Shown one piece after another: positions 6,373 through 64,000 of a stretch of 64,000 bases of DNA. The notes under the pieces are model-generated. The model saw only the letters and a program-made list of their open reading frames with translations, made no database searches and was not told the origin of the DNA. A program made the translations under genes and the position numbers. The DNA is taken from assembly GCF_001436395.1 (NCBI RefSeq), contig NZ_AZGJ01000002.1:1-64000 (forward strand), in the 5' to 3' direction. This stretch comes from Secundilactobacillus malefermentans DSM 5705 = KCTC 3548 (GTDB lineage: Bacteria; Bacillota; Bacilli; Lactobacillales; Lactobacillaceae). Numbering within the stretch: the first letter of the stretch is position 1; each line of letters begins with the position of its first letter.

Positions 6373-7845
6373 CTACTCTAACTTATCTTGCTTTATTTCT
6401 GGTCGATCAAACCAGTTGGTTACAAATGCAATCAGAATCAAACAAACTCCCAAAATAAAGACATAATGAATTCCTTGATACAAAATATGTCGTAGAATTG
6501 GTAAAAGTTTTTCCTGAAGATCTGTTGCAGTTTTAGGATTAATTAACTTATTCATCATTGACATGGATGTCGATTGATGCGAATTAACGCCCTTCGCCAT
6601 GGTCACATTCAACACAATTCCAAATACGGAAACCATCAGCGTTTGTCCAAGTGTTCGACTAAGCGTATTTAATGAAGTTGCGATTCCAATGTCCTTGGCG
6701 GAAACTTCATTTTGAACAGTAACCGTTGTTGTTGTAATCGTAATTCCAAACCCAGTTCCGCAAATTGCGGCGACTAAGTAGAACCAGCCAAATCCTGTTG
6801 AATATGGAAAGAGCGCAAAAATAGCAGATCCAATTAAAATAATCGTCAGACTAATCATCACCACTCGTTTGGGGGTCAAACTCAATAACAGTTTTCCTGC
6901 AATAAAGGACCCCACCATCCACATAATTGAGCTAGGCGCTAAAGCAAATCCGGCAATCGTAGCTGGCAAACCTTTGATTCCCTGAGCCCACATTGGAATG
7001 TAAACATCAAAACCAATAAGATAACCACTAATCAGCGCCGCAACCAAATTTTGAGTGACAAATGTTCTGTCCTTAAATAGTTCAAGAGGAATGATCGGAT
7101 AGCTAACTCGTTTCTCTCGACGAATAAATAAATAGCCAGTTATAATTGCTAACACAAAAGTCCCGACCACCATGAACCAGTTTATGGTCGTTTCACTGAG
7201 CATTTGAAAAATATACATAATTGCTAACAAGGTAACTGATAGCCATAAACTCCCTTGATAATCCATCTTTGTTTTTCGAGGGACAAAGGTTTCGTGATGA
7301 AAAATAATAATTAATGCAATGACAATAATGCCAATTGGAACGTTGATAAAGAAAATCCAGTGCCACGTTAACTGATCAACAATGAACCCTCCAATTAACG
7401 GCGCTACAATAGATGCAATTCCCCATGAGGCTCCGTTAAAGCCAAGAACTTTGGCGCGCTTTTCGAATGGATAAATATCAGCAATAATCGTAAACGTCAC
7501 TGGCATAATAGCACCAGCACCTATCCCTTGTACTGCCCGCCACATAATAAGCGTTCCCATGCTTTCAGATAAACCGGAGAGAGTTGACCCTATGATAAAT
7601 ACTGAGAGCCCAAAGACCAACACTTTTTTCCGCCCAATTGTATCTGAGAGTTTTCCGTATATCGGTGTAGCAATTGCGTTTGTCAGTAGATAGATAGAGA
7701 AAATCCAGTTCATGATTGAAACACCATGCAAATCACCAACAATCGTTGGCATTGCGGTTGAAACAATGGTCCCCTCAATTGCAGACATGAATGAAGCCAC
7801 AAAAACGGCAATTGTCACAATGACGACATTACTCTTCTTTTCCAA
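6373..7845 (-). CDS. MFS drug-export permease, DHA2 (EmrB/QacA) family
   Basis: This is a 490-residue proton-coupled multidrug exporter of the 14-helix DHA2 family. Visible signatures include the motif A-like loop GKLSDTIGRKKVLVFG after the second helix, the motif C-like stretch GASWGIASIVAPLIGG in helix 5 and the N-terminal IVSTAMPTIVGDL. The substrate cannot be read from sequence. The start is set at TTG 7845 because GGAGGTG lies 6-7 bases upstream; an in-frame ATG at 7887 would run through that SD and sits inside the metK terminator. No adjacent TetR or MarR regulator is present. Confidence 0.92.
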   Translation of the reverse strand: MEKKSNVVIVTIAVFVASFMSAIEGTIVSTAMPTIVGDLHGVSIMNWIFSIYLLTNAIATPIYGKLSDTIGRKKVLVFGLSVFIIGSTLSGLSESMGTLIMWRAVQGIGAGAIMPVTFTIIADIYPFEKRAKVLGFNGASWGIASIVAPLIGGFIVDQLTWHWIFFINVPIGIIVIALIIIFHHETFVPRKTKMDYQGSLWLSVTLLAIMYIFQMLSETTINWFMVVGTFVLAIITGYLFIRREKRVSYPIIPLELFKDRTFVTQNLVAALISGYLIGFDVYIPMWAQGIKGLPATIAGFALAPSSIMWMVGSFIAGKLLLSLTPKRVVMISLTIILIGSAIFALFPYSTGFGWFYLVAAICGTGFGITITTTTVTVQNEVSAKDIGIATSLNTLSRTLGQTLMVSVFGIVLNVTMAKGVNSHQSTSMSMMNKLINPKTATDLQEKLLPILRHILYQGIHYVFILGVCLILIAFVTNWFDRPEIKQDKLE

Positions 7846-7872
7846 AATTTCACCTCCGTGTTTCATCTCAAT

Positions 7873-7915
7873 AAAAAACAGTGACAATTTTGTCAGAAAA
7901 CAAAATTTATCGCTG
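7873..7915 (-). terminator. Intrinsic terminator of metK
   Basis: On the minus strand just after the metK stop, AATTTTGT and ACAAAATT (7900-7907 and 7886-7893) form an 8-bp stem. It is extended by GA/TC and CAG/CTG pairs across small internal loops, and TTTTTT follows. It lies upstream of the exporter's SD. Confidence 0.75.
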
Positions 7916-7922
7916 TCCTTTT

Positions 7923-9116
7923 TTAGTTTCTATCGAAAAACTTCTTTAATTCATCAACCTTATCCAAATGTTCCCAAGGCAAATCAATATCTGTACGGCC
8001 AAAATGACCATATGCAGCAGTTTGCTTATAGATTGGGCGCTTCAAATCAAGCATTTTAATAATTCCTGCTGGACGAAGATCAAAAATTTGACGAATAGCA
8101 CTCGTTAGCTTAACTTCCGAAACGTTTCCAGTTTCAAACGTATTAACAGAAATAGAAACTGGTTGTGCCACACCAATTGCATATGCTAATTGAACTTCAA
8201 CTTGGTGAGCCAATCCTGCAGCAACAATGTTTTTTGCAATGTAGCGAGCAGCATAACTAGCTGAACGGTCTACTTTAGTGGCATCCTTTCCTGAGAAAGC
8301 ACCACCACCATGACGTGCGTAACCGCCGTAGGTATCCACGATGATTTTACGGCCGGTTAGGCCTGCATCACCTTGTGGTCCACCAATCACAAAACGACCA
8401 GTTGGGTTAATGAAAAATTTTGTTTTATCATCAAGTAACTTAGCTGGAATAACAGCTTTAACGACTTGATCGATAACGTCTTTTCGAATTGTGCTTAACT
8501 CAACATCTGGATCATGTTGGGTACTAAGAACAACGGTGTCTACTCTAATTGGTTGATTATCATCATCATACTCAACCGTCACTTCAGCCTTAGCATCTGG
8601 CCGTAAGTAACTGATAACACCATCTTTTCGTAACGCAGCAATTTTTCTCATCAACCGGTGGCTTAATGAAATTGGAAGTGGCATCAGTTCAGGTGTCTCA
8701 TCAATTGCATAACCGAACATCATACCCTGATCTCCGGCACCAATTTGGTCAAGTGGATCCTCATCACCCTTACGAGTCTCCAGAGAATCATCAACTCCTT
8801 GAGCAATATCCGGTGACTGCTCGTCAATCGCAACCATAACGGCACAGTTATCGCCGTCAAAGCCATACCGACCATCTGTGTAACCAATACTCTTAATGGT
8901 TTGACGAACAACATGTTGAATGTCGACATATGCCTTTGTTGAAATTTCACCAAAAACGAGTACGAGACCCGTCGTAACTGAAGTTTCACAGGCAACCCGC
9001 GCATCAGGGTCTTGTTCAAGCATCGCATCTAGGATTGCATCACTGATTTGATCAGCGATTTTATCGGGATGCCCTTCTGATACAGATTCTGAAGTAAATA
9101 AATGTTTTTCTTGCAC
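7923..9116 (-). CDS. metK: S-adenosylmethionine synthetase
   Basis: This 397-residue cytoplasmic enzyme makes S-adenosylmethionine (SAM) from methionine and ATP, a usual length. It begins with the family's [19 protein letters not shown] motif (catalytic His near residue 16). [12 protein letters not shown] is near residue 126 and the P-loop-like [17 protein letters not shown] is near residue 270. The start is GTG, preceded 9 bases upstream by AGGGGG, which is also part of the S-MK box. Translation should therefore be shut off when SAM is abundant. A strong terminator follows, so it is monocistronic. Confidence 0.98.
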
Positions 9117-59902: not shown

Positions 59903-60856
59903 TTAATTAACTGTCCCAGCAAAACTAGGCATAAAGTACTTACTAATTGTTTCGATTTCCACGTTTTGCCCTGGGGTCGGTGCAGCAACATATTGTCCGT
60001 TACCAATGTAAATTGCATCATGATAAGTTGAGCCCTTACTGCCCCAGAATAAAATATCGCCAGGAACCGCTTTGGCTACGCTGTGCGTTGTAACATGTGA
60101 TTCTTGTTGAACTGTATTATGTGGCAAAGAAACGCCAGCAGCATTCTTATAAACATACATAACTAATCCAGAACAGTCCATTCCCTTTAATGAAGCGCCA
60201 CCCCAAACATATGGGATGTTCTCTCCAGCCAATTTAACTGCTAATGCAGCTACTGAGGTTGTTGACGCATCATTCGTAGTCGTGACTGTTGTATCCTTGC
60301 TTGAGCTTGCCGTAGCCGTATTCGTTGAAGAACTCGTTGAATCATCGGTATCCACATGATTATCTTGCTTAGCAACTGTTCCGCTGACGGTTAGCTTTTG
60401 ACCAGCATAAATGGTACTACCAGAAATTTTATTAAGCTTTTGCAGCTTTGCAACGGTTGTGTCGTATTTTGAAGCAATCTTTGAAAGTGTATCGCCTGAT
60501 TTAACTTTATATGTATTCGTAGCAGACGAAACCTTATTACTTGTTTCAGTAACCGTTGTTGTCTTTGTCGATGTTTTAACTTGAGTGGTCGCTTTGACAG
60601 TTTTGCTAGTTTGCTGTTTAATCGTCAATTTCTGACCAACAAAAATGACATCATTTTGACTTGCATTCTTTTTGATTGAGTTAGCTGACTCAATACTTTT
60701 GACAGAAACGTTGTACTTTTTAGCAATGCTCCAAACCGTATCGTTTGATTTTACTGTAACCGTTTTTGCGCTTGCCGACTGGCTTGTTACCAAAAGAAAT
60801 CCAGCGGCACTCGCAACACCAGCCAATACCTTTACCGTGTTATGACTATGTCCCAT
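59903..60856 (-). CDS. Secreted LysM and NlpC/P60 peptidoglycan endopeptidase
   Basis: This 317-residue secreted enzyme has an Ala-rich signal peptide (cut near SASA-KTV, residue 30) and two LysM peptidoglycan-binding domains (about residues 33-79 and 115-158). A Ser/Thr-rich linker then leads to a C-terminal NlpC/P60 domain with catalytic Cys228 (GMDCSG) and His278 (YHDAIYIG). Such enzymes split gamma-D-Glu-meso-diaminopimelate or Lys-containing stem peptides during growth and separation. It starts at ATG after GGGAGTG. Monocistronic, with terminators at both ends. Confidence 0.95.
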   Translation of the reverse strand: MGHSHNTVKVLAGVASAAGFLLVTSQSASAKTVTVKSNDTVWSIAKKYNVSVKSIESANSIKKNASQNDVIFVGQKLTIKQQTSKTVKATTQVKTSTKTTTVTETSNKVSSATNTYKVKSGDTLSKIASKYDTTVAKLQKLNKISGSTIYAGQKLTVSGTVAKQDNHVDTDDSTSSSTNTATASSSKDTTVTTTNDASTTSVAALAVKLAGENIPYVWGGASLKGMDCSGLVMYVYKNAAGVSLPHNTVQQESHVTTHSVAKAVPGDILFWGSKGSTYHDAIYIGNGQYVAAPTPGQNVEIETISKYFMPSFAGTVN

Positions 60857-61049: not shown

Positions 61050-62048
61050 TTAATTAAATAAACTATTAAAGAAATCAGTGATTTTTTGCCACAAACTCTG
61101 TAAAAAATTCTGAGCTTTTTTTGCATCCGCACTATTTGCGAAGTCTTTCAACGATGCCATTTTATCTCCAATAGAGGATTTTAAATCATTGGCAACATTC
61201 GTGACGTTGTTAATATACGTTTTAGTTGTTGAAACGGGTGCTTTTTGAACATTGCTTAGCGCTATGACGATATTATTAATTGAAGAACTAGGCGTCTTAC
61301 TCGTAATATCATGATCTGCTAATGCTTCTTCTAACATTTGCTTAATATCTGCTTTCGTTGCTAAATTATTATCCGATTGGCGTTGTTTTGCAAGTTTCGC
61401 GGAAACATCACCCACAGCAGACATTAATTTCCCTGGATAACTAGTATCGTCACTATTTGAATTAATGGCTGGTTGTGTCGCATCAAGCACATCATTGGCA
61501 GCCTGTGTGTTTTCAGCATTCAACGATAAGCCATCTGCAGCTAAGGCCTTGTAGACACCCGTTAAGGCTGATTCACCAGAGACTGACTTATCGGCCGTCA
61601 CCGTGATAATAACGTCCTTTACTCCTGCCATAGTTGCAACCATGGCATACTGTTGAGAAGTAACCTGTGAAATATTATTTTGGCCATTAAATTTTTCAAT
61701 ATTAACTTTAACGCCACTTCCAGGATCGGCAGGTGCTAACGAAACCGAGCTAATCATGCTTGCATCGGTTGTACCAGCAGAATTTAGATAAGTAGCATAA
61801 TCATTTCCCGTCGCAGTCAATGATTCATAATTTGACTTCACTCCTAGGGCAGTTGCAATATCATCCTTATCTTCACTTGCTAGACCGGCCCCATAGACAA
61901 CGTACGGCTTTGAAAGTGCTTTTGTTTGTACTGCTGATGAACTTGACGAGTCCGTCGTATCAGCAGAAGCTAGCTGACTTGTTATCCCCAATGTACCAAC
62001 AAAGACTAACCCGACAAATAGGTTAACTAATATCTTTCGCAGTTTCAT
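61050..62048 (-). CDS. Secreted DUF1002-family protein
   Basis: This 332-residue exported protein has a signal peptide (about residues 1-29, ending QLASA) and no lipobox. The body matches DUF1002 (YpuA family), with the family-like opening PYVVYGAGLASEDKDDIATA, VNIEKFNGQNNISQVTSQQY and TVTADKSVSGESALTGVYKA. The last about 70 residues are helical with an SLWQKITDFFNSLFN amphipathic end. Function is unknown; the domain is seen in several Gram-positive surface proteins. It starts at ATG after GAGGAA. Confidence 0.88.
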   Translation of the reverse strand: MKLRKILVNLFVGLVFVGTLGITSQLASADTTDSSSSSAVQTKALSKPYVVYGAGLASEDKDDIATALGVKSNYESLTATGNDYATYLNSAGTTDASMISSVSLAPADPGSGVKVNIEKFNGQNNISQVTSQQYAMVATMAGVKDVIITVTADKSVSGESALTGVYKALAADGLSLNAENTQAANDVLDATQPAINSNSDDTSYPGKLMSAVGDVSAKLAKQRQSDNNLATKADIKQMLEEALADHDITSKTPSSSINNIVIALSNVQKAPVSTTKTYINNVTNVANDLKSSIGDKMASLKDFANSADAKKAQNFLQSLWQKITDFFNSLFN

Positions 62049-62163: not shown

Positions 62164-62919
62164 TCACATATCCAATTCATAATTAGCAATGGATAATCCC
62201 ACTTGCTGCATCATTTGTAGCGTCTTAGTTCTATCACTCTGACTTGTGCTCAGCACCGCAACATCAGTAATGTGATTAGTCGTGATAAATCGTGCAACAT
62301 CATGATCAACGCCATTTCCTTCACCAGTTTTATTGAATACCTGAATTGGCCACCCTAATTCATCAAAGGCGCCAGGTAATTTATAGCGTGCTTGCTGATT
62401 CAAGAACCAGTCTTTCGTCTGCTTATCCGCCTTTTTTGAGATTAATTCTAATAGTCTTAAGGCTTCACTTGCAGTTGTCCTGTTATCAATCCCTTTTTCC
62501 AATGCCGATACATCCATTAGGTACCTATTTAAATGAGTTTCAGGAAAACCATTCCCTTGTAGCCATGAATTAACTTTTTTCATACCAAGTTCGTTGATAA
62601 TCAAATTAGCCGCCGTATTATCCGACACAGAAATCATTAACCCAAGTATCTGAGAAACTGTAAACTCACCCGACTGTAAAATCTGTAAAACGCCGGCACC
62701 TCCGACAATATTTGACTTCTTAAGTGAAATTAGGTCTTCAAAATTCAGATTTTCCATGGCACACGCCAAAATTGGCAATTTAATCAATGAGGCCGCCGGA
62801 AAACTAACATTTAAATTCTTTTCAAATACAATTCTGTCGTCAATTTTGACAATGACAGCACAATTTGCAAAGCCATCCAATTCGTCATGTAGTTCATCAA
62901 CAAGTTCAGTCATGTTCAT
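62164..62919 (-). CDS. Class A beta-lactamase-like serine hydrolase without signal peptide
   Basis: This 251-residue protein has the active-site set of penicillin-recognising enzymes: Ser44-x-x-Lys47 (ASLIK), Ser98-Asp-Asn100 and Lys196-Thr-Gly198. Its omega loop lacks Glu166: where class A has RWEP, it reads RYLM with Leu133. It also has no export signal, so it is probably cytosolic. That points to a peptidase or amidase role rather than antibiotic resistance. Its ATG overlaps the stop of the preceding peptidase gene (ATGA), after AGGAGA, so it is strongly coupled to that enzyme. Confidence 0.82.
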   Translation of the reverse strand: MNMTELVDELHDELDGFANCAVIVKIDDRIVFEKNLNVSFPAASLIKLPILACAMENLNFEDLISLKKSNIVGGAGVLQILQSGEFTVSQILGLMISVSDNTAANLIINELGMKKVNSWLQGNGFPETHLNRYLMDVSALEKGIDNRTTASEALRLLELISKKADKQTKDWFLNQQARYKLPGAFDELGWPIQVFNKTGEGNGVDHDVARFITTNHITDVAVLSTSQSDRTKTLQMMQQVGLSIANYELDM

Positions 62920-63809
62920 CGCCAGTATCTCCTAGCGCCTTCAAGTTCAGGAGCATAACGCATTTCAGTAAGCGTTCCAATATCAATGTTCTTTCCAATC
63001 GTTCGTGACTGAATCATTTGGCCATTTCCCATATAAATTCCAACATGGTGGACATAGCCTGTTCCGTGGTCATAGGCAAAAAACAACAGGTCGCCGGGTA
63101 AAAGTTCTTCGGGAGAAACGGGCATGCCATTTTGGCTTTGATCATCTGCGTCCCTAGGAATTTGAATTTCTAAAACTCGGTGTAAATTATAGGTCAAACC
63201 GGAACAATCAAATCCATACGAGCTTATTCCTGCCCACAGATATCGTAGGCCCATATATTGCTCAGCCATTTTAACAATAGTTTCGCCCACATTTCCGCCA
63301 ACGACGGGCAATTTAATTGAATCCGCTTGAATAAATCCACTTCCAAACGGGGTTTGAACTTTAAGCAAATTATCTTCCTCAGCAATCTGTTTAAAAGTTG
63401 TTCCCATACTAATATCCATTAAAGGTTGTTTCTGAGCGTCGAATAGAGTGGTACTTTTCACAGCTACTTTTACTTCTGCCGTTGTCTTATTAACAGATGT
63501 TAGCGCTTCAGGACCCAATAATTTAGTCGGAACCCAGCCACTATAGCCATCTAAGCTTTTATCATCAGGTTGCCCTAAAACGGAAACTTTTGCCCAGCCA
63601 CCCTCAGTATAGTCTACTAGCACCTGATCATTAAACAGTGCTTGGGTTGCCAGCCGATTGCCGTCAGCAAGGTCAATTGAACTTTCTAATGACATTTCAC
63701 TTACCCATTTTTTGACATCTCCAGTCAATGCCAGCTGATCTTCTTTACGTGGGGCATCTTTGCTTGTCCAAATAGTTGCAACCGGTACAATCACTCGTTT
63801 AATTTCCAT
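62916..63809 (-). CDS. NlpC/P60 dipeptidase with SH3 domains, YkfC-like
   Basis: This 297-residue protein has two SH3b-like domains (about residues 35-100 and 110-165), then an NlpC/P60 domain with Cys202 (FDCSG) and His255 (HHVGIYMG). It has no signal peptide, matching cytosolic YkfC-type gamma-D-glutamyl-L-diamino-acid dipeptidases that break down murein tripeptides. ATG 63809 follows GGAAGCGGGG; an in-frame start at 63848 has weaker SD support. Coupled to the serine hydrolase gene. The partial gene upstream resembles an L-Ala-D/L-Glu epimerase, which supports a murein-recycling role. Confidence 0.88.
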   Translation of the reverse strand: MEIKRVIVPVATIWTSKDAPRKEDQLALTGDVKKWVSEMSLESSIDLADGNRLATQALFNDQVLVDYTEGGWAKVSVLGQPDDKSLDGYSGWVPTKLLGPEALTSVNKTTAEVKVAVKSTTLFDAQKQPLMDISMGTTFKQIAEEDNLLKVQTPFGSGFIQADSIKLPVVGGNVGETIVKMAEQYMGLRYLWAGISSYGFDCSGLTYNLHRVLEIQIPRDADDQSQNGMPVSPEELLPGDLLFFAYDHGTGYVHHVGIYMGNGQMIQSRTIGKNIDIGTLTEMRYAPELEGARRYWR

Positions 63810-63877
63810 GAGAATTTCCCCGCTTCCTTTTCTATCAATATACAACATTCAACCGCTTTTCAAAAGGTAAGACCATC

Positions 63878-63914
63878 AAAAGGACACCAAGCGTTTTTCA
63901 CGTTTGGTGTCCTC
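63878..63914 (-). terminator. Probable terminator of the partial upstream gene
   Basis: AGGACACCAA (63881-63890) pairs with TTGGTGTCCT, with extra CG pairing inside, and a TTTT run follows on the minus strand. Confidence 0.65.
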
Positions 63915-63926
63915 TCATTAATATGC

Positions 63927-64000
63927 CTAACCCAAACCCAAGCCAATCTTATCAGGTAATGTAATATTTTCGCCTGATACTTCAATACCACCGGCAATTG
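63927..64000 (-). CDS. C-terminus of a probable dipeptide epimerase (partial)
   Basis: A frame entering from the right edge ends at TAG 63927-63929. The visible residues IAGGIEVSGENITLPDKIG plus the ending LGLG resemble the C-terminal end of enolase-superfamily dipeptide (L-Ala-D/L-Glu) epimerases, which finish in a GGhxhxxxxhxhPxxPGLGh pattern. The call rests on 23 residues and the YkfC-like neighbour. It could be another enolase-superfamily member. The rest lies outside the window. Confidence 0.5.
   Translation of the reverse strand, partial: IAGGIEVSGENITLPDKIGLGLG

Follow-up and report, generated by a model that had tools for sequence, protein, structure and literature searches.

A serine hydrolase of class A beta-lactamase fold, linked to murein-peptide salvage genes in Secundilactobacillus malefermentans and other Bacilli, as a candidate cytosolic DD-peptidase

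A gene for a serine hydrolase (SH) resembling class A beta-lactamases overlaps a ykfC-like gene in Secundilactobacillus malefermentans, which raises the question of what an enzyme of the penicillin-binding fold does among genes for peptide salvage. The window analysed here is a stretch of 64,000 nucleotides, the first 64 kb of a contig of 88,882 bases. The SH gene (62164..62919, minus strand) encodes a protein of 251 aa that matches PF13354 (Beta-lactamase2) with an E value of 7.5e-42. The ykfC open reading frame extends over 62916-63848 on the minus strand, and the gene itself is likely to comprise 62916..63809, starting with the ATG at 63809 behind GGAAGCGGGGA. The stop codon of ykfC and the start codon of SH share the ATGA at 62916..62919 (minus strand), as an earlier note on this DNA had read from the sequence. 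AGGAGA at 62928..62933 (minus strand), within ykfC and 8 nt upstream of the SH start, is the likely SH ribosome-binding site.

The earlier note had also tentatively assigned these genes to muropeptide salvage and had likened a gene fragment at the edge of the window to the C-terminus of an L-Ala-D/L-Glu epimerase. Reading past 64000 bore this out: on the same contig the fragment (63927..64000, minus strand) continues into a complete gene (G000:C65:63927-65000), of which it forms the 3' end and which encodes a 357-aa epimerase. The gene for an OppA lipoprotein lies upstream of it (G000:C65:65012-66646). The peptide transporter sought in this region was found in part: the binding lipoprotein is present, but permease and ATPase genes are absent from the immediate locus in this genome. 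OppA, the epimerase and YkfC are all encoded on one strand; past OppA come an Lrp/AsnC regulator on the opposite strand, then a C39-like peptidase and an S58 peptidase. The genes for the C39-like cysteine peptidase and the S58 (DmpA-type) peptidase overlap (L002:7351-9001, equivalent to G000:C65:67351-69001), and the pair precedes OppA in the window genome, in S. oryzae, in genome G027 and in most Lentilactobacillus loci; these peptidases may belong to the peptide module as well. On the other side, beyond SH, the window encodes a DUF1002 protein that is secreted and a cell-wall hydrolase of the LysM-NlpC/P60 type (59903-60856 and 61050-62048, minus strand), and a similar pair of open reading frames follows SH in several Secundilactobacillus genomes.

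The best solved relative of the epimerase is the B. subtilis L-Ala-D/L-Glu epimerase 1JPM (E 7e-102). Residues K162, K164, D193, E221, D246, K270 and D325 were invariant in our alignment (A6) and D323 was conserved in >90% of the sequences, such that the KxK motif of the enolase superfamily, the metal ligands, the second catalytic Lys and the C-terminal DxD of YkfB-type enzymes are all present. The score against NF041118 was 252.9, below the cut-off of 500, and the name of this model (Thtga) points to another subgroup. Among solved structures, YkfC matches B. cereus YkfC 3H41 best (3e-52). The YkfC subfamily of NlpC/P60 proteins combines SH3b and NlpC/P60 domains and is characterized by a Cys-His dyad, the amine-binding residue Asp256 and Tyr118 of the SH3b domain (PMC2954226). 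The window protein has these features, with Cys202, His255, Asp220 and Tyr89 aligning with Cys238, His291, Asp256 and Tyr118 of 3H41, but its third triad residue is Gln where 3H41 has His303. Inspection revealed no export signal in either YkfC or SH. Encoding a genuine epimerase and YkfC together with a lipoprotein that binds peptides, the locus has the composition of a ykf-type murein-peptide operon, in which epimerase and YkfC accompany a peptide importer, here through OppA.

Whether all of these genes form one operon is a separate matter. The earlier note had spoken of a possible operon. A terminator-like hairpin (63877..63917, minus strand; −23.7 kcal/mol, z −6.2) with a short T-run behind it sits in the gap between the epimerase and ykfC genes. 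Because of this hairpin, a single operon from oppA to SH is doubtful, as is the inclusion of the epimerase gene in the same operon as SH, and ykfC and SH may constitute a two-gene transcription unit of their own. An automatic terminator scan did not list the hairpin, probably because its T-run is short. S. oryzae and L. kisonensis also have hairpins between these two genes, but of different sequence. In L. hilgardii the site that carries the hairpin in the other species, between the epimerase gene and ykfC, is occupied by a gene for a TnpB/OrfB-like transposase (L086:5768-6862).

The catalytic motifs of SH are intact. The SxxK motif (Ser44-Lys47; 62779..62790), the SDN motif (residues 99-101; 62617..62625) and the KTG motif (residues 197-199; 62323..62331) are all encoded on the minus strand, and Ser44, Lys47, SDN, Lys197 and Gly199 are invariant in 37 aligned relatives. 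Leu134 (62518..62520, minus strand) occupies the position of the class A omega-loop residue Glu166 and of Leu158 of PBP-A, the residue altered in the L158E crystal structure. The alignments agree with the earlier note in placing a Leu at this position; the idea that it is an oddity of the window gene was rejected, as position 166 is Leu, Met or Phe in all 117 homologues collected. An AlphaFold2 model of SH had a pLDDT of 97.4. Foldseek returned 4HES, PBP-A and 4EWF as top matches, and VIA-align ranked 4HES first (Z 32.9, 2.2 Å over 247 residues), 4EWF second (31.0) and PBP-A sixth (29.4), with the class A precursor LRA-5 at 30.6. By these scores, obtained with the predicted structure, PBP-A and some class A proteins cannot be told apart on fold alone. 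A profile built from the 37 relatives, on the other hand, placed 4HES, 4EWF and PBP-A (9e-44) well above any true beta-lactamase.

The best match in both sequence and structure, 4HES (a Veillonella parvula ‘beta-lactamase class A-like protein’), is 28% identical to SH, shares an R-x-x-M-D motif with it and has Met at position 166; a literature search found no functional characterization of this protein. The closest characterized relative is PBP-A (Tll2115) of Thermosynechococcus elongatus. Both proteins have the structural features of a PBP-A-like DD-peptidase, i.e. the class A fold, SxxK, SDN and KTG motifs, and a non-acidic residue, Leu in each case, at position 166. The two differ in that they are only 22% identical, Glu96 of PBP-A is replaced by Gly74, and SH lacks an export signal and is encoded in a peptide salvage locus.

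These comparisons bear on two alternatives. The class A-like fold and the similarity to PF13354 and bla_class_A would suit a working beta-lactamase conferring resistance, yet with Leu at position 166, no export signal, linkage to salvage genes and only 60.5 bits against an NCBIfam cut-off of 200, this is extremely improbable. SH could also be a sensor or regulator, a role suggested for the class A-like protein BlaB of Streptomyces cacaoi, and would then bind muropeptides or beta-lactams but not turn them over. BlaB (2WUQ, ‘beta-lactamase regulatory protein’) is among both the sequence and the fold matches, and one homologue has lost the Ser, SDN and KTG; however, BlaB ranks below 4HES and PBP-A, none of the 37 aligned relatives departs from the catalytic motifs and no signalling partner was seen at the loci, making a sensor role quite improbable. 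The homologue in question (L056:9388-10176, genome G037, near a contig end) has Asn in place of the catalytic Ser, while its SDN and KTG motifs read SDH and KTE, and its sequence suggests that it is probably a dead enzyme.

An export signal of the class A type was not found in SH; the protein has no hydrophobic N-terminal stretch and its catalytic Ser is already residue 44. This result, obtained from hydropathy rather than from a trained predictor, agrees with the earlier note that SH has no signal peptide. By the same measure, the hydrophobic stretch was absent from 53 of 54 distinct SH proteins encoded at linked loci, the single exception being an open reading frame with an over-long start, compared to 24 of 52 unlinked proteins; the other 28 unlinked proteins have such an N-terminus.

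The earlier note had suggested looking for SH next to ykfC homologues, and the association does recur in Secundilactobacillus and in other Bacilli. The epimerase-YkfC-SH arrangement is present in all 15 Secundilactobacillus genomes examined and in G027. Within a sample of 60 genomes of relatives, with the genome of the window counted in, SH lies beside YkfC in 19 of 20 other YkfC-bearing genomes, the exception being G029. SH genes also occur in murein-peptide loci of Lentilactobacillus (epimerase-YkfC-SH, with S58-C39-OppA upstream), Sporolactobacillus (LdcA-epimerase-YkfC-SH), Bacillaceae (OppA-LdcA-epimerase-YkfC-OppF-SH), Enterococcus (OppA-epimerase-YkfC-SH), Carnobacterium (SH-YkfC-OppA), Mammaliicoccus, where SH is convergent with YkfC-epimerase-LdcA, and Listeria, where the order is YkfC-SH-OppA-DppA and the nearby DppA is a D-aminopeptidase (M55). 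In one other genome an M19 dipeptidase adjoins SH. Outside these groups, SH is paired with an epimerase in Synergistaceae and forms LysA-M20-SH on a Cetobacterium plasmid with a glutamate racemase nearby; one Fusobacterium record contained a match, the record itself being without annotation. Such proteins are mostly named ‘serine hydrolase’ in public plasmid records.

A survey of 399 Bacilli genomes, counting only near-full-length SH matches among those listed, used cut-offs of 1e-40 for YkfC and 1e-20 for SH, which divergent copies may escape. SH lay within 6 kb of YkfC in 15 genomes from eight families, compared to 0.25 expected under uniform placement, with the reservation that related species are not independent. 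Among the matches listed, LdcA was also present in 8 of these 15 genomes, and in five more LdcA and SH were adjacent without a canonical YkfC; OppABCDF was present at both of the latter loci that were read out. Linkage is far from universal, since SH lies away from both YkfC and LdcA in 67 of the 89 SH-bearing genomes, again among the matches listed. NlpC/P60 proteins neighbouring SH at three loci (L188, L203 and L206) had low scores in the YkfC search. A tree built by a quick method from 126 rows placed the SH of the window in a group of 42 (SH-aLRT 96), 40 of which are linked. The linked label changed 17 times on this tree compared to 42 times in shuffles, and although deep branches are weakly supported, linkage has on these sequences been gained or lost several times.

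The B. subtilis ykfABCD operon is the obvious model for this locus. The YkfB-type epimerase and YkfC are common to both, and Bacillaceae relatives keep the order LdcA-YkfB-YkfC-Opp ATPase, followed by SH. The B. subtilis operon as published, however, has four genes and no SH (PMC3305447), whereas the window locus has SH in a genome with no match to YkfA or S66. The earlier note had considered that SH might take the slot of YkfA, an LD-carboxypeptidase. By convergence, SH could remove D-Ala from tetrapeptides or split the mDAP-D-Ala left by YkfC. S66 matches were absent from G027 and from all 15 Secundilactobacillus genomes, that of the window included, and Acinetobacter ElsL provides a precedent in an unrelated cytoplasmic LD-carboxypeptidase (PMC8649774). 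Nevertheless, LdcA/YkfA is in one operon with SH in Sutcliffiella, Cytobacillus, other Bacillaceae and Sporolactobacillus and adjoins SH elsewhere, S66 matches occur in 8 of 20 SH-bearing genomes of the genus of G027 (LdcA and MccF types being separated only beside YkfB/YkfC or SH), and the SH fold is known for D,D-type substrates. A takeover of the YkfA reaction is accordingly unlikely, and as a general role of SH it was rejected because LdcA and SH coexist in one operon; a local substitution in the genome of the window is conceivable. LdcA/YkfA and SH are alike in being cytosolic and in acting, or being expected to act, on imported stem peptides, and they are often neighbours, but SH has no S66 domain (PF02016), matching PF13354 instead, and the co-occurrence of the two implies that they are not equivalent. 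Since they share operons, SH is not simply YkfA renamed; it looks like an extra step in salvage.

We estimate at about 0.5 the probability that SH is a cytosolic DD-peptidase of the PBP-A type, acting on imported stem peptides within a murein stem-peptide salvage module. We favour a DD-peptidase step because it best joins the fold, the motifs, the nearest characterized relative and the neighbouring genes. Its substrate, the bond cleaved, its place in the pathway and its deacylation route are proposed as follows. OppA would capture stem peptides and an Opp-type ABC transporter would import them. Before or beside the LdcA and YkfC steps, Ser44 of SH, activated by Lys47 with Ser99 and Lys197, would be acylated by the D-alanyl bond of an imported peptide, and water would deacylate the acyl-enzyme without Glu166. 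As a DD-carboxypeptidase, SH would strip pentapeptides of their last residue, D-Ala (or D-Lac); as an endopeptidase, it would open D-Ala cross-bridges. The substrates of LdcA are tetrapeptides, and those of DppA are D-Ala peptides. Judging from its conserved substrate-binding residues, YkfC would cut peptides whose N-terminal L-Ala is free, at the bond following L-Ala-gamma-D-Glu, and the epimerase, by close homology, would convert L-Ala-D-Glu to L-Ala-L-Glu. PBP-A is both a DD-carboxypeptidase and a DD-endopeptidase on muropeptides, with a preference for amidated ones (PMC11189452). The substrate of SH may differ, as Glu96, by which PBP-A selects amidated D-iGln, aligns with Gly74, a residue nearly invariant in SH relatives. 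Moreover, the DD step is not strictly needed, as B. subtilis YkfC already takes tetra- and pentapeptides (PMC2954226). A cytosolic DD-peptidase would also endanger UDP-MurNAc-pentapeptide unless it were selective for free peptides, and we identified no residue that would ensure such selectivity.

Many Firmicutes amidate their stem peptides, and D-amino acid amidases of the penicillin fold are known. Both facts count for another D-specific hydrolase, either an amidase that takes the carboxamide off amidated mDAP or D-iGln, or an esterase acting on D-Ala-D-Lac ends, that would prepare imported peptides for YkfC and the epimerase. That PBP-A reads the amidation state of stem peptides (PMC11189452), and that Gly74 stands in place of its selectivity residue, are consistent with such an activity. 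We consider it a minor possibility, given that the relatives found include no characterized amidase in the class A/PBP-A branch. Any function of SH, the DD-peptidase step included, must also accommodate loci in which an epimerase gene adjoins SH with no YkfC nearby, as in two Lactobacillus MAGs (L109 and L116, ~7000-8700).

Both this type of operon and the fold were known previously; searches of the open-access literature found no description of a cytosolic member lacking Glu166 and recurrent in murein-peptide operons. Accounts of murein-peptide recycling in Gram-positive bacteria are built on YkfA-D, and the conservation of a further enzyme suggests that they lack a step. More tentatively than for the single protein, SH may represent a widespread and hitherto unassigned cytosolic DD-peptidase of the penicillin-binding fold that regularly takes part in the recycling of murein peptides by Gram-positive bacteria and, being selective for free peptides, spares the cell's own UDP-MurNAc-pentapeptide. 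A cytosolic peptidase of this fold raises the question of how cell-wall precursors are spared. Our results also reveal an intracellular group among the Glu166-less relatives of class A beta-lactamases, whose genes are easily mis-annotated as resistance genes. Two loci have a different composition. At L192 (G157:C33:112600-125300) SH adjoins a permease-like protein with no Pfam match, an M20 peptidase and an epimerase-like protein, and the Synergistaceae locus L154 combines an epimerase, a GntP/Na-H antiporter-like permease and SH. These may be peptide salvage loci of another type, not based on Opp.
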